In this document: in pieces, positions 41,584 to 46,801 of the stretch | Layout of the letters: the number at the start of each line of letters is the position of its first letter | Position numbering within the stretch: the stretch's first letter is position 1 | Assembly: GCA_028285755.1 (NCBI GenBank) | Contig: JANQOQ010000008.1 | Coordinates: forward strand, 753,399-817,398 | Length of the DNA stretch: 64,000 nucleotides | Source of the DNA: Puniceicoccaceae bacterium | Lineage (GTDB): Bacteria > Verrucomicrobiota > Verrucomicrobiia > Opitutales > JAFGAQ01 | Direction of reading: 5' to 3' | Translations under genes and position numbers: made by a program | Notes under the pieces: model-generated | What the model was told of the DNA's origin: nothing | Database searches by the model: none | Seen by the model: only the letters and a program-made list of their open reading frames with translations

Positions 41584-42381
41584 TTAAGAGATACCCTCTA
41601 GCTCTTCCATTTCATTGCGGCTTATCACATAAGTCGCCGCGCAACGTGGGCAGTTTACGGTGATTTCACTTTCACCGCGGAAGAGGTTTTCTGGATCCTC
41701 CTGCATCATGGGCAAAAGCATTTCGCAAATCTTTGCTTTACTGCATCCGCAAAACCATCGGTAGATACGTGTCTCCAGGAGGTTAGTTTCCTCCTGTTCC
41801 TGAATATTACGCATCGTGTCGAGATCAAGCGTCGTAAACCAGCCCTCATCGTAGTCTGGATGAGCGGTCATGAGGCTGTAATTGCCATCACCCATATCAA
41901 AGAATTTCCCGGGTCGTTGCTCACTTTGCTCGTAAAAACGTTCCACAGCTGCTGAAGCATCGGTGCCGTCGAAGTCCACCATACTACGGTGCAACGGTTT
42001 CCCAGGCCGCTTGAGTTCCTGATACATTTCGTTTTTACCGCCTTGCCTGATGTTATCGGTGAAAAAGCGCCCGGTGACGGTTCCCAGCTCTGTGTCCCCT
42101 CCGAAAAAGAAACTGCAGAGTGGGTCATTGAATCGGATCGTCCAGGCAAGCACTTCGTTGCGTGGCCTGGAGGCGCAATGCAATGTAAATGCCGCCAGCA
42201 AACCTTTGAATATGGGCGAGATTTCATCCGGCACCTCTATGTTATATTGCTGTTGGTGCTTTTGGAGTTCATTAAAAAGCGGTTCCCCCTGTATTTCGGA
42301 TAGCAGAATATTACGGCCGCGTACAAAGCGGTTGAATATTGCGAATCCGGGAACTGCGATTTCTTGCTCTTGTATGTTCAT
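41584..42381 (-). CDS. hslO: Redox-regulated chaperone Hsp33
   Basis: 265 residues. A cytoplasmic holdase switched on by oxidation. Zinc-binding cysteines are in two pairs near the C terminus: C211-x-C213 (CGCSKAKI) and C244-xx-C247 (CPRC), the Hsp33 CxC/CxxC redox switch. The N-terminal chaperone body (about 1-190) has LLAAFTLHCASR and TVTGRFFTDN. The length is slightly shorter than the E. coli protein but complete. It is divergent from the DinB-like gene. Confidence 0.93.
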   Translation of the reverse strand: MNIQEQEIAVPGFAIFNRFVRGRNILLSEIQGEPLFNELQKHQQQYNIEVPDEISPIFKGLLAAFTLHCASRPRNEVLAWTIRFNDPLCSFFFGGDTELGTVTGRFFTDNIRQGGKNEMYQELKRPGKPLHRSMVDFDGTDASAAVERFYEQSEQRPGKFFDMGDGNYSLMTAHPDYDEGWFTTLDLDTMRNIQEQEETNLLETRIYRWFCGCSKAKICEMLLPMMQEDPENLFRGESEITVNCPRCAATYVISRNEMEELEGIS

Positions 42382-42485: not shown

Positions 42486-43052
42486 TTGTCTAGACTCACT
42501 AAATCCTATCCCACGGTGTATTACTTATTTAAAGACAATATTTCATTTTTGCAGCAAGCAATTGACTTGCTCGGACAGTTGGATGATTCCGCGTTCAGTG
42601 AAGGCATGCCACCGCTCTCGGGTTCCGGTATAGGTCCGCATCTAAGGCACTGTCTTGATCATTATGAGTGCTTTCTGAATGGAGTCAGCGAGGGTTATAT
42701 CAATTACGATCAACGTTCGCGGGATCCGGATGTAGAAAGCTCGGTCACAAAGGCACTCAAATATTTAAAGGAATTACAGCATCGCCTGAGTGATGTATCC
42801 CGGATTCATCCGGATACCTCGTTGCGGATTCATATGGACTGTGGCACTCAGGATACCGCTGCTGCCGAAAAGGGAACGGGAACCACGGTTGCCCGTGAGT
42901 TGCAATTCTTGGTCAGCCACACGGTGCATCATTATGCGATCATCAGTATGCTCTGCCGTCATAAGTCCATTCCCCTGCCGGACGGTTTTGGGGTGGCGCC
43001 TTCGACTTTAAAGTACGAGCAGCAACAACAGAGCACCCAATGTGCACAGTAA
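42486..43052 (+). CDS. DinB-like putative metal-dependent protein
   Basis: 188 residues. A four-helix protein with GPHLRHCLDHYECFL (first His group, about 55-70) and LVSHTVHHYAIISML (second His group, about 139-153). This is the three-His pattern of the DinB/YfiT superfamily of metal-dependent thiol transferases and hydrolases. The only start in frame is TTG at 42486, just after an in-frame TAG and directly abutted by AGGAG. It is first gene of a five-gene overlapping operon, and its 3' end overlaps the NRDE gene by 13 bases. Confidence 0.82.
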   Translation: MSRLTKSYPTVYYLFKDNISFLQQAIDLLGQLDDSAFSEGMPPLSGSGIGPHLRHCLDHYECFLNGVSEGYINYDQRSRDPDVESSVTKALKYLKELQHRLSDVSRIHPDTSLRIHMDCGTQDTAAAEKGTGTTVARELQFLVSHTVHHYAIISMLCRHKSIPLPDGFGVAPSTLKYEQQQQSTQCAQ

Positions 43053-43768
43053 GCTGGTTACTCGAGCCCGATGCTTATACCCTGTTTTTTAGTCGGGATG
43101 AGCTCAAGATACGTCCCCGGGCAATTCCGCCGCGCATTCAGGAAATTAACCGGGTAAAGGTGATTGCACCGCAGGATCCCCAGGGTGGGGGGAGTTGGAT
43201 CGCAGTCAACGAGTTTGGAACGACGATTTGTCTGCTCAATCACTATGGTGCCTACGCGAGTATAGAAGCGGCTAAAAAATATAGAACCCGGGGAGAAATT
43301 GTGATGAATCTTTCTGCCTTAAAAGATGCTGCAGAAATTGAATCGGCACTAAGGCATATTGCAATGAATGATTACCCGCCTTTTCGGCTGCTCTGGCTCA
43401 CGGCAAATGAGGGTATTCGCAGTTGCATTTGGGACGGAAAAAATTGCATCTGGGTGACCCCCGATAAGTTGCTTGCCCCGCTTTCCGGTTCCTCATTTGA
43501 AAATGATCAGGTCGTATTTGAAAGAGCAGCGGCATTTCGGCAAATCGTGAAATCTGAAATTTCGACAGAATCTTTAATAAAGTTTCATGAGAGTTATGAT
43601 ACTCTTCGGGGCCCCTATTCAGTGAATATGCATCGTGAGGATGCGCAGACGATGAGTATGAGTGTAGTAACGGTTACCCAGGAGCAAGTTCACTTTGAGT
43701 ATCGCGATAAACCAGGATATGGCTTTGATTTTGGGGCTACTCATGAGCTGGATATACCACGCGGATAA
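43040..43768 (+). CDS. NRDE-family protein (Tango2-like)
   Basis: 242 residues. It starts MCTVSWLL with a cysteine at position 2, followed by FFSRDELKIRPRA, the variant of the NRDE motif that names the family, then GGSWIAVNEFGTTICLLN. The fold is related to Ntn-hydrolases, where Cys2 would be the exposed nucleophile after Met removal. The eukaryotic relative TANGO2 affects Golgi and heme handling; a bacterial role is not established. It overlaps the DinB-like gene and ends 2 bases before the DedA/ATP-grasp fusion. Confidence 0.85.
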   Translation: MCTVSWLLEPDAYTLFFSRDELKIRPRAIPPRIQEINRVKVIAPQDPQGGGSWIAVNEFGTTICLLNHYGAYASIEAAKKYRTRGEIVMNLSALKDAAEIESALRHIAMNDYPPFRLLWLTANEGIRSCIWDGKNCIWVTPDKLLAPLSGSSFENDQVVFERAAAFRQIVKSEISTESLIKFHESYDTLRGPYSVNMHREDAQTMSMSVVTVTQEQVHFEYRDKPGYGFDFGATHELDIPRG

Positions 43769-43770
43769 CT

Positions 43771-45501
43771 ATGGGGGTATTCAGAAAAAAGCGCTTTTGG
43801 ATCATGCTTGCGTTAATCGCTGGGGGGTTGGTTATCTGGCGGCTAAGTATGTCTGGTATCATGCCGATTGAGGACATTACCGATCTCAAATTCATGGATT
43901 TGACCGAATGGCCGAAGTACCTGCTGTTGACCATTGTTTTTTTCGGCACCTTCGGTAGTGAAGACCTTGCCTGTATAACGGCCGGTATTTTGGTAGCCAA
44001 GGGGGGGCTGTCGTTTTACGAGGCCTGCATGGCATGTTTCGGTGGGATTTTTCTGGGAGATCTGGGTATATATTGGTTGGGGAGGCTCTTTGGCGAGCAT
44101 CTTCTGGATCGTGCACCTTTCCGCTGGTTCATATCGCGGAGCGCTGTACGTGCCAGTGAGCACTGGTATCAGCATCGGGGTGTCTGGGTGATTATTGCCA
44201 GTCGCTTCATGCCGGGGACACGCGTACCGATCTTCTTTGCATCCGGTGTATTGAAGGCGGATTCGCTGAAAGTGGCGCTTGTCCTAGGGATAGCAGGTAT
44301 CATGTGGGTGCCGCTATTGGTCAGCCTGGCATTTTTCTTTGGGGAGTCGATGCAGATGTGGTTTGAAGCGCACCAATATTGGGCCGTGGGCGGCGTGCTC
44401 ATGGTGATCGTGGCGAGCCTTTTCGTGATCAATGGGATCTTGCCACTATTCAGCTACCGGGGCCGCCGGTTGATGTATGGCCGCTGGAAACGATGGACAC
44501 GCTGGGAATTCTGGCCGGCGAAGATGGTGTATCCCCCGGTTGTTATGCACATTGTATATCTCGCATTTAAGTATCGCAGCTTCTCACTGCCAACACTCGC
44601 GAACCCGATGGAAAAAATGGGCGGGCTGATCAATGAATCCAAGATAGATATCCTGAGCCAGTTAAAGGATTCCGGTTTGCCGGTAGCCGATTTCAGCGAA
44701 ATCCGAGAGACGTTTTCCAAGCCAGCACGATTCAGGCTCGCGCGAAAGTTTGTGGATTCGAAGGGCGGATATCCGGTTGTTTTAAAACCCGAGCAAGGGG
44801 AACGCGGCAAAGGTGTGGTGATCGTTAAAAATGAAGTGGAGCTGCAATCAAACGTAGATAGCCAGTCTGGAAATCTGATCATCCAGGAATTTATCGATGG
44901 CAACGAGTATGGTGTGTTCTATGTTAAATTCCCCAATGAAAAGGAGGGGCGCATAACCTCACTTACCCACAAGAGCTACACCTATGTGACGGGAGACGGT
45001 ATTCATGATTTGGAACATTTGATTCTCGAGAATGAGCGGACCGTTTGCTACGCAAAGAGACTATTTGAAGCGCATGAAGAGCGGTTGTATGATGTTCCGG
45101 AGAAAGGGGAACGTATCCAAATGGTGGAGTTGGGTACTCACTCGAGGGGCTGTCTTTTTCTGGATCGTAACGACCTGATTACCGAGGCTCTGCAAAAGAC
45201 GCTCAATGACTGGAATCAACGGGTAGAAGGTTTTGCCTTCGGGCGTTTTGATATTAAGGTGCCCAGTGAAGATGCCCTAAAGGGGGGTGAATCGATGCAG
45301 ATTCTTGAACTCAATCTCCTGACTTCAGAACCGACCCACATTTACGACCCGCGGCATAAACTGTCGTACGCGCGCGACTGTTTGAAAAGACATTGGGAAA
45401 TGGCATTTGAAATTGGAAAACAATATCGTCAGCTTGGCTATTCAGCCATTTCGAATATGAGTATTATAGGTGCGATATTGAATTATTACCTGAGTGAATG
45501 A
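43771..45501 (+). CDS. DedA-like membrane domain fused to an ATP-grasp domain
   Basis: 576 residues in two parts. Residues 1-225 form a DedA/VTT-type membrane domain: helices near 9-30, 50-75, 80-102, 137-160, 166-190 and 204-226, with GTFGSEDLA, GGIFLGDLGIYWLG and the diagnostic ASRFMPGTRVP (143-153). A basic hinge (229-245) follows. Residues about 290-540 form an ATP-grasp ligase: YPVVLKPEQGERGKGVVIV (334-352, nucleotide Lys and Gly loop), IIQEFIDGNEYGVFYV (370-385), FGRFDIKV with D494, and ILELN with E513 and N515 as metal ligands. DedA proteins recycle undecaprenyl phosphate or flip phospholipids; ATP-grasp enzymes join a carboxylate to an amine or thiol. The gene sits mid-operon and overlaps the next by 4 bases. 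Confidence 0.88.
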   Translation: MGVFRKKRFWIMLALIAGGLVIWRLSMSGIMPIEDITDLKFMDLTEWPKYLLLTIVFFGTFGSEDLACITAGILVAKGGLSFYEACMACFGGIFLGDLGIYWLGRLFGEHLLDRAPFRWFISRSAVRASEHWYQHRGVWVIIASRFMPGTRVPIFFASGVLKADSLKVALVLGIAGIMWVPLLVSLAFFFGESMQMWFEAHQYWAVGGVLMVIVASLFVINGILPLFSYRGRRLMYGRWKRWTRWEFWPAKMVYPPVVMHIVYLAFKYRSFSLPTLANPMEKMGGLINESKIDILSQLKDSGLPVADFSEIRETFSKPARFRLARKFVDSKGGYPVVLKPEQGERGKGVVIVKNEVELQSNVDSQSGNLIIQEFIDGNEYGVFYVKFPNEKEGRITSLTHKSYTYVTGDGIHDLEHLILENERTVCYAKRLFEAHEERLYDVPEKGERIQMVELGTHSRGCLFLDRNDLITEALQKTLNDWNQRVEGFAFGRFDIKVPSEDALKGGESMQILELNLLTSEPTHIYDPRHKLSYARDCLKRHWEMAFEIGKQYRQLGYSAISNMSIIGAILNYYLSE

Positions 45502-45965
45502 TGGGGGAATTGAAGCAGTTGGAGTATGTGTTGATGTATGACGGCGATTGCCTGTTTTGCAACGCGTCCGTACGCAGCATCGTCAGGCGGCTCAAAAAAA
45601 CTCGAATGGCCATTATACCGCTTCAATCGGCCACTGCAAAAAAACTGCTCGATGAACGCTTTAAGGGTCAACCCGTTCCTGACTCGAACATACTGCTCAC
45701 CCGGGATCAAACGTTTGTGAAAAGCACCGGTTCTCTAAAACTATTTAAACATTTTGCATGGTACTGGCAGCCGTTTCGTATTTTTGAGTGGATTCCGAGG
45801 GCTTTCAGAGATTGGGTGTATGATCTGATTGCGACCAATCGGCACCGTTTAGCCAAAAAGAATATGTGCATGCTCAACCCTCAGGATAACCGGGATACTG
45901 TCGAGATCTTTGATGAGCGAGAAGCGGTCATAGAAACGGTTTATCGTGCATTTACATCGAAATGA
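45498..45965 (+). CDS. DCC1-like thiol-disulfide oxidoreductase
   Basis: 155 residues. MYDGDCLFCNASVRSIVRRL near the N terminus holds C18-L-F-C21, the DxxCxxC signature that names the DCC (DUF393) family, a thioredoxin-like group. It has no signal peptide or clear membrane helix. It overlaps both neighbours by 4 bases, so translation is coupled with the fusion protein upstream and the membrane protease downstream. Confidence 0.88.
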   Translation: MMGELKQLEYVLMYDGDCLFCNASVRSIVRRLKKTRMAIIPLQSATAKKLLDERFKGQPVPDSNILLTRDQTFVKSTGSLKLFKHFAWYWQPFRIFEWIPRAFRDWVYDLIATNRHRLAKKNMCMLNPQDNRDTVEIFDEREAVIETVYRAFTSK

Positions 45966-46801
45966 GTGATTTTGAACATACTTCCACGGGGGTGCTGGCC
46001 CTGGTTTTGATGGGGCTGATTTTCGGGGGCAGCATCGTTATCTGGATTAAAAACCGGCCGCTTTGGTTGAAGGGGCAATCCCTGCACCTGATGCCTCTGG
46101 ACCTGCGCTTCCTGGATTTTTCAATAATTGTTTGGGCAGTTGTGATGATCTACAGCCTGCTGCTATTGTTGCTTCCGGGTTGGCTTAACATAACGGAGGC
46201 TGACTTCGAGGGTGGTATCAGTGCTCCGGTGATGATTTTTCAGATCACCCTGCAATTATCGGTCTTTGCGACGCTGGTCGCTTTCCGTACCTTTGCAAAA
46301 TCCACCTATCATGATATATTCGGGCCCTACAGTGGAGGCTGGTCGCACTCCATCAAGCTCGCTGTGCTGCGCTTGGTTCAGTTTTGGCCTGTCATTTGGC
46401 TTGGCAATGCTGCCAGTTATTGGCTCTTTGACCTCTTTGGGATCGATGCGGATTTGCAGCAGGCGATAGAATTGATCTACGCAATCGAAAGCCCCTACGT
46501 GTTCTTTGCGGCAATCGCATCTGCTGCATTAGTGGCCCCTTTCGTGGAGGAGTTACTGTTTCGCGGAGTTATTTATCGCTACCTGAAACGAAAAATGGTG
46601 ATTACGCACGCCATCGTACTTTCCTCGATAATATTTTCCCTGCTACACCTACACCCGCTTTCGTTTTTTGCGATTTTCCTGCTCGGGATAATCCTGGCAC
46701 TCGTATACGAGGAAGCTCAGGATATACGAGCACCCATTATCATGCACTTATTGCACAATACCTTTACCGTAATTCTGATCGCATTCGATAAGCTACAATA
46801 G
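45962..46801 (+). CDS. CPBP/CAAX-type intramembrane metalloprotease
   Basis: 279 residues with about seven membrane helices. Motif 1 is E196-E197-LLFR201 (VEELLFRGVIYR); motif 2 includes FSLLHLHP (H229/H231), and MHLLHN (H262, H265) gives the final histidine. This matches the Abi/CPBP glutamic intramembrane protease family, which matures prenylated or small membrane peptides and sometimes bacteriocin-related products. It is the last gene of the operon, convergent with the RRM gene, with 4 bases between the stops. Confidence 0.88.
   Translation: MSDFEHTSTGVLALVLMGLIFGGSIVIWIKNRPLWLKGQSLHLMPLDLRFLDFSIIVWAVVMIYSLLLLLLPGWLNITEADFEGGISAPVMIFQITLQLSVFATLVAFRTFAKSTYHDIFGPYSGGWSHSIKLAVLRLVQFWPVIWLGNAASYWLFDLFGIDADLQQAIELIYAIESPYVFFAAIASAALVAPFVEELLFRGVIYRYLKRKMVITHAIVLSSIIFSLLHLHPLSFFAIFLLGIILALVYEEAQDIRAPIIMHLLHNTFTVILIAFDKLQ

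Follow-up and report, generated by a model that had tools for sequence, protein, structure and literature searches.

What does a bacterium do with a single protein that joins a DedA-type membrane domain to an ATP-grasp ligase? The question is raised by a gene of a Puniceicoccaceae bacterium, a member of the Verrucomicrobiota, that lies in the window analysed here, a stretch of 64,000 nucleotides of its genome. An initial annotation, made from the sequence alone, proposed that the protein might make or modify a lipid-linked compound at the inner face of the membrane and then expose it. Our analysis favours, at slightly better than even odds (a probability of roughly 0.55), a more specific reading: we take the protein for an ATP-grasp amide ligase, embedded in the membrane and joined to its own DedA-type lipid transporter, that acts on lipids which contain an amino acid (the ornithine type). 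The features on which the argument draws are collected in Table 1.

Table 1. The fusion gene, the parts of its product and the neighbouring genes in the window
Feature	Position in the window	Strand	Evidence
Hsp33-like protein, PF01430 match in C-terminal part only	41584-42381	-	Pfam
DinB-superfamily-like protein, recurrent partner (58/86 loci)	42486..43052	+	Pfam, profile counts
NRDE/TANGO2-family protein, N-terminal MCT and SRDE motifs, recurrent partner (44/86 loci)	43040..43768	+	Pfam, profile counts
Fusion protein, 576 aa: anchor helix, DedA/VTT domain and ATP-grasp ligase	43771..45501	+	ORF, Pfam, AlphaFold2, VIA
N-terminal helix, aa 4-27, positively charged start	43780..43851	+	AlphaFold2 helix, low pLDDT; same position in three-domain relatives
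VTT/DedA domain, aa 71-186 (Pfam)	43981..44328	+	PF09335; E64, D65, D97, R145, R151 conserved
Juxtamembrane helices, basic and aromatic, aa 229-290, WEFWPxxxYPPVV...NP...GG...GESK	44455..44640	+	Alignment, AlphaFold2
ATP-grasp ligase domain, aa 291-557	44641..45441	+	Pfam, AlphaFold2, fold matches, conserved residues
DCC1-like thiol-disulfide oxidoreductase, not a recurrent partner	45498..45965	+	ORF, Pfam
CPBP/Rce1-like membrane protease, overlaps DCC1 gene, not a recurrent partner	45962..46801	+	ORF, Pfam

Both halves of the protein are intact. The reading frame opens with an ATG and holds zero internal stops, and in the whole genome the gene match falls within a stop-free open frame of 584 codons. 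The membrane half matches the VTT domain with 46.3 bits against a Pfam cut-off of 33.9 (E 7e-12), and carries the ASRFMPGTR motif at residues 143-151. Five of its charged residues (E64, D65, D97, R145 and R151) are each conserved in 61-62 of the roughly 62 alignment rows that have letters there. The VTT domain, the E/D pair and the SRFxPGxR motif are held in common with the DedA family (UptA, YqjA and others), whose members, as far as we know, stand alone. In the ligase half the Pfam matches are weak yet above cut-off from residue 324 on (ATP-grasp_3 25.8 bits, cut-off 23.2; RimK 24.6, cut-off 21). The nucleotide and magnesium set of the ATP-grasp superfamily (Lys, Lys, Glu, Arg, Asp, Glu, Asn) is present, and K291, K339, R345, E379, K401, R492, D494, E513 and N515 are identical in 71/71 aligned homologues. 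Thus the DedA-type domain with its motif, the junction free of stops and frameshifts, and the D494, E513 and N515 that had been called intact are all upheld. We also note two diverged ligases, one (L017, genome G040) in which the equivalents of R492, E513 and N515 are replaced and another (L018, genome G022) that is without N515.

The fold supports a ligase. An AlphaFold2 model built with the homologue alignment has a mean pLDDT of 90.7 and a pTM of 0.82, with pLDDT mostly above 90 in the ATP-grasp part. Residues 247-557 superpose on ATP-grasp enzymes with VIA Z scores of up to 16.8, so the fold that the initial annotation expected of this half is there. The best match is cyanophycin synthetase 1 (7wae_A; residues 251-547, Z 16.8, rmsd 4.5 over 270 residues); next come GshAB, LysX/ArgX, RimK and Ddl, and sequence identity over the fold is at most about 22%. 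Because the VIA rows from about Z 13 to 17 are largely one superfamily, the fold speaks for an amide or other C-N ligase and not for a substrate. An identity as cyanophycin synthetase itself was rejected, with an NCBIfam score of 39.5 bits against an equivalog cut-off of 850.

Fold and catalytic residues are thus common to the C-terminal domain and to cyanophycin synthetase 1, LysX/ArgX, RimK and D-Ala-D-Ala ligase, which are soluble enzymes. Where these C-N ligases would lead one to expect a pre-ATP-grasp domain, however, the fusion protein appears to have helices joined to a membrane transporter; residues 229-300 come out as helices in the model. The juxtamembrane block (WEFWPxxxYPPVV...NP...GESK) is largely retained in stand-alone ligases without a DedA domain, and its retention suggests that the ligase itself may touch the membrane.

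How common is this arrangement? A profile scan of 84,980 species genomes returned 80 loci in the Verrucomicrobiota, Acidobacteriota, Planctomycetota, Balneolota/Rhodothermota, Calditrichota, Desulfobacterota, Spirochaetota and Pseudomonadota; the profile was built without the members that diverge most, so these loci lean towards relatives of the window. Cultured carriers of the ligase include Pelagicoccus, Balneola and Salinivibrio. Among order-level relatives a clear homologue (E 1e-40 or better) is found in 19/52 genomes. Most of these frames are 850-890 aa long and hold an extra N-terminal alpha/beta hydrolase, which had escaped the initial annotation, as had the DinB and NRDE/TANGO2 genes just upstream and the link to aminolipids. 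We counted architectures by ORF in 81 homologues, plasmid loci included, with some ORF ends in GC-rich contigs uncertain. The commonest form is alpha/beta-hydrolase, DedA and ATP-grasp (49/81), followed by DedA and ATP-grasp (17/81, including the protein of the window) and by ATP-grasp alone (15/81). The question of whether the two domains always occur together therefore has a mixed answer: they are fused in 66/81 homologues, and the ligase is on its own in the remainder.

Only in distant lineages are the parts found as separate genes side by side. In Paracoccus, P. denitrificans included, the ligase, the hydrolase and the VTT protein are each encoded by a gene of their own within one neighbourhood, and in Salinivibrio and Vibrio the VTT and ligase genes are adjacent and are followed by DinB-like and NRDE genes. 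Such adjacency points, independently of the fusions, to a joint function of the parts. These separate genes are also what could be cited for a fusion that is an artefact of sequencing or assembly, or for a ligase in decay. We regard this explanation as vanishingly improbable. In close relatives the fusion is either the same or larger, and the catalytic residues are invariant in the 71 homologues. An artefactual joining in particular is ruled out by the intact frame in the whole genome and by the many phyla in which the fused homologues occur.

The hydrolase, in turn, has decayed in part of the family. The ligase tree contains many changes of architecture, and on it the protein of the window groups with L034/L035, which retain the hydrolase with a Gly (AQGLGA) and not a Ser at the nucleophile position. 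The catalytic triad is intact in 38/53 three-domain proteins. From this it is likely that, in the lineage of the window, the hydrolase first lost its Ser and was then deleted, and the N-terminal helix of the fusion protein is likely to be a remnant of the anchor that carries a periplasmic hydrolase in the three-domain relatives. As a separate observation, Balneolaceae loci (L041, L050, L071, L078, L091 and L094) have a fused hydrolase with Gly for the nucleophile Ser, and another hydrolase-like gene about 2-3 kb upstream on the opposite strand. A three-domain protein from Calditrichia (L059) was modelled with AlphaFold2 (pLDDT 87.4, pTM 0.67). The best fold matches of its hydrolase part are esterases and lipases, the first being the monoacylglycerol lipase ABHD6, which is consistent with a lipid substrate. 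We infer a topology with the hydrolase outside and the ligase inside. By the positive-inside rule, the positively charged N-terminus ahead of the anchor helix would place the hydrolase outside, and the ligase should be inside because it needs ATP and is preceded by a strongly basic segment.

The neighbouring genes are the main source of evidence on the pathway. When ORFs were clustered with no families preset, the neighbours of widest occurrence proved to be DinB-like, PF13444 GNAT, NRDE/TANGO2 and PlsC acyltransferase proteins, most of them encoded within 2 kb of the ligase and on its strand. Counted as six-frame profile matches within 6 kb of the ligase in 86 loci, they amount to 58/86 for DinB, 44/86 for NRDE, 40/86 for GNAT and 27/86 for PlsC, with DoxX at 16/86; where the full flanks are available, an OlsB-type GNAT is found within 6 kb in 31/56 loci. 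With phyla assigned from record titles, a GNAT lies near the ligase in 11/33 loci of Verrucomicrobiota, 9/19 of Acidobacteriota, 5/5 of Planctomycetota, 9/11 of Balneolota/Rhodothermota/Bacteroidota and 2/3 of Calditrichota, so that OlsB-type GNAT and OlsA-type PlsC genes are each found near the ligase in several phyla. The best NCBIfam models of these neighbours are those of ornithine-lipid synthesis (OlsB for the GNAT, OlsA for the PlsC and OlsF for a 600-aa form), all with scores below the equivalog cut-offs, so the amino acid used by the acyltransferases is not certain. On Komagataeibacter plasmids the genes near the ligase encode an acyltransferase, a methyltransferase and a protein like haem oxygenase; a GNAT was not detected near these plasmid loci.

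The association extends to whole genomes. Of 46 genomes picked because the locus lacked a GNAT in the first count or the contig was cut, 42 have PF13444 somewhere; it was not found in the other 4, the completeness of which is not given. Among the 52 order relatives, 17/19 genomes with the ligase have PF13444, vs 9/33 without (Fisher p 3e-5). The same holds for 119 genomes drawn evenly from the Acidobacteriota, with the ligase counted at E <1e-100: 14/15 genomes with it and 14/104 without it have PF13444 (Fisher p 9e-10), and in 11/15 ligase genomes the gene is on the same contig within about 5 kb. These p values ignore kinship and genome size, and a stronger case is made by the physical clustering, which is seen in separate phyla. 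Many genomes that lack the ligase have PF13444 too, which makes the ligase an add-on. The genome of the window has one PF13444 gene (G000:C2), which encodes an OlsF-like protein of 612 aa that scores 411 bits against an equivalog cut-off of 620; it lies about 160 kb from the fusion gene, outside its operon. A single case is suggestive: in genome G040 PF13444 was not found, and there the ligase is the one with the replaced catalytic residues.

Some further features of these loci deserve mention. In an alignment of 37 DinB-like proteins the pattern RH...HxHHxA is invariant; the Pfam scores are only marginal, and the proteins may form a new DinB subfamily. The N-terminal MCT and [NS]RDE motifs are also conserved in the NRDE/TANGO2 proteins encoded at L059:7699-8445 and L031:9615-10361. 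In the window the start of the DCC1 gene overlaps the stop of the fusion gene, so the two are probably on one transcript. Three loci (L040:4486-6295, L054:4923-6904 and L092:4456-6397) encode a fusion of a ferric-reductase-like membrane part with a Rieske part, the Pfam assignment being that of L040. In several phyla this protein is encoded directly upstream of the OlsB gene together with an unannotated protein of 250 aa that has no Pfam match (cluster C8); perhaps the two are a lipid-modifying redox pair.

What might the protein do in such a pathway? ATP-grasp enzymes convert a carboxylate into an acyl phosphate, which is passed to an amine or thiol, and the products of OlsB and OlsF have a free alpha-carboxylate. 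Together these two facts lead to the ligation that we propose. OlsB and OlsA, or OlsF, would make an N-acyl, O-acylated amino-acid lipid. At the cytoplasmic face the ATP-grasp domain would turn the alpha-carboxylate of this lipid into an acyl phosphate, and link it to a second amine, such as taurine or an amino acid, to give a lipodipeptide-type head group. The DedA domain would then move the ligated lipid across the inner membrane, and in most relatives the periplasmic hydrolase on the same chain may trim or edit lipids. The proposal that a lipid-linked compound is made or modified at the inner face and then exposed is in part supported, and the OlsB, OlsA and OlsF partners make it more specific; the carboxylate, the amine and the flipping, together with whatever DinB and NRDE contribute, are inferred. 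It counts against our reading that soluble substrates are usual for many ATP-grasp enzymes. The full scheme would be a widespread lipid system not described before: a single polypeptide that links a second amino acid or an amine to ornithine-type lipids inside the cell, exports the product via DedA and edits it outside via the hydrolase. We hold it more tentatively, at somewhat under even odds.

The genomic association with OlsB, OlsA and OlsF would fit equally well if the ligase acted in the aminolipid pathway on the head group or tail and not on the alpha-carboxylate. It might, for instance, join an acid onto the amine that ornithine lipid has free, or make an unusual amino acid for OlsB to acylate. 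LysX/ArgX and RimK are close fold matches that could be read this way: the amino acids that they add go onto a carboxylate of a carrier, either terminal or in a side chain. The membrane domain and juxtamembrane helices, however, speak for a lipid rather than a soluble amino acid as substrate, and we consider such a role unlikely, if less so than the alternatives that follow. The initial annotation named undecaprenyl phosphate and phospholipid flipping as tasks of DedA relatives, and a protein that recycles these lipids while its ligase serves cell-envelope peptides or polymers, independent of aminolipids, could explain why the VTT part finds its best NCBIfam match in UptA (E 7.6e-13) and why D-Ala-D-Ala ligases are among the fold matches. 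The UptA score of 49 bits is nevertheless far from the equivalog cut-off of 250, and an assignment as UptA was rejected on this ground; undecaprenyl and peptidoglycan genes are absent among the recurrent neighbours, and the Ols association would be left unexplained. We therefore do not favour undecaprenyl phosphate as the DedA substrate, and think the whole idea improbable.

We give similarly little credence to an operon for thiol, redox or heme handling, in which a glutathione-synthetase-like ligase makes a membrane-anchored thiol. The frequency of DinB-like partners (a superfamily with a thiol enzyme), of NRDE and of DoxX could be seen in this light, as could the DCC1 gene that adjoins the fusion gene in the window and the Rieske/ferric-reductase protein upstream of the GNAT in some loci. 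The bacterial TANGO2 homologue HtpA binds heme (PMC10470608). Human TANGO2 is itself reported as heme-binding and also as a likely N-terminal-nucleophile hydrolase; yet it is further reported to bind acyl-CoA (PMC11867700), so its presence need not mean heme. Moreover, the Ols acyltransferases are equally embedded in these loci, and thiol-synthesis genes are not recurrent among the neighbour clusters seen.

The preferred reading, a ligase of ornithine-type lipids with its own transporter, has no described counterpart that we could find. The protein belongs to two known families, while its architecture and pathway association appear new. To our knowledge, the known ornithine-lipid pathways end at two acylations plus head-group or tail modifications. 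The literature searched held no description of an ATP-grasp or DedA step in ornithine-lipid synthesis and no function for DedA/VTT paired with ATP-grasp, in line with the initial annotation; searches for olsB with taurine or dipeptide gave only unrelated papers. MprF, the lysyl-phosphatidylglycerol synthase/flippase, would be alike in having a lipid-modifying enzyme and a flippase on one chain, if the fusion acts as we propose. MprF uses aminoacyl-tRNA and phosphatidylglycerol, and its lysyl-PG synthetase domain is absent among the Pfam and NCBIfam matches listed for the fusion protein.

There are lipids that would need such an enzyme. In cerilipin and in the serine-glycine lipodipeptides (flavolipin, lipid 654 and the doreamides) the second amide bond would need a ligase that acts on an OlsB/GlsB-type lipid. 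Cerilipin is an ornithine-taurine lipid of Gluconobacter cerinus, and no ligase for it is named in the portions of the source used here (PMC4484230). The one tie between the present family and cerilipin producers is that of the Komagataeibacter plasmids described above, from within the Acetobacteraceae. As for the lipids of Bacteroidota that contain serine and glycine, the authors state that they have not identified the gene for Ser ligation, which they mark '??', and in Bacteroides dorei their search of peptide-bond Pfam families gave no candidate ligase (PMC12746155). We do not claim that the present family makes either; it is a candidate for the type of ligase that such lipids require.

If true, the proposal would supply the missing ligase type for lipodipeptide-type bacterial membrane lipids and a new substrate class for DedA. 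Lipids of the ornithine kind and their relatives occur commonly among bacteria, and those of lipodipeptide form act on host immunity through TLR2. The family offers a concrete candidate type of ligase for the addition of a second amino acid, with co-localised partners in cultured organisms, and a new ligase-plus-transporter fusion to set beside MprF. It would also tie two poorly understood families, the DedA transporters and TANGO2/NRDE, to one lipid pathway, and the bacterial lipid-operon context may help to settle the function of TANGO2.
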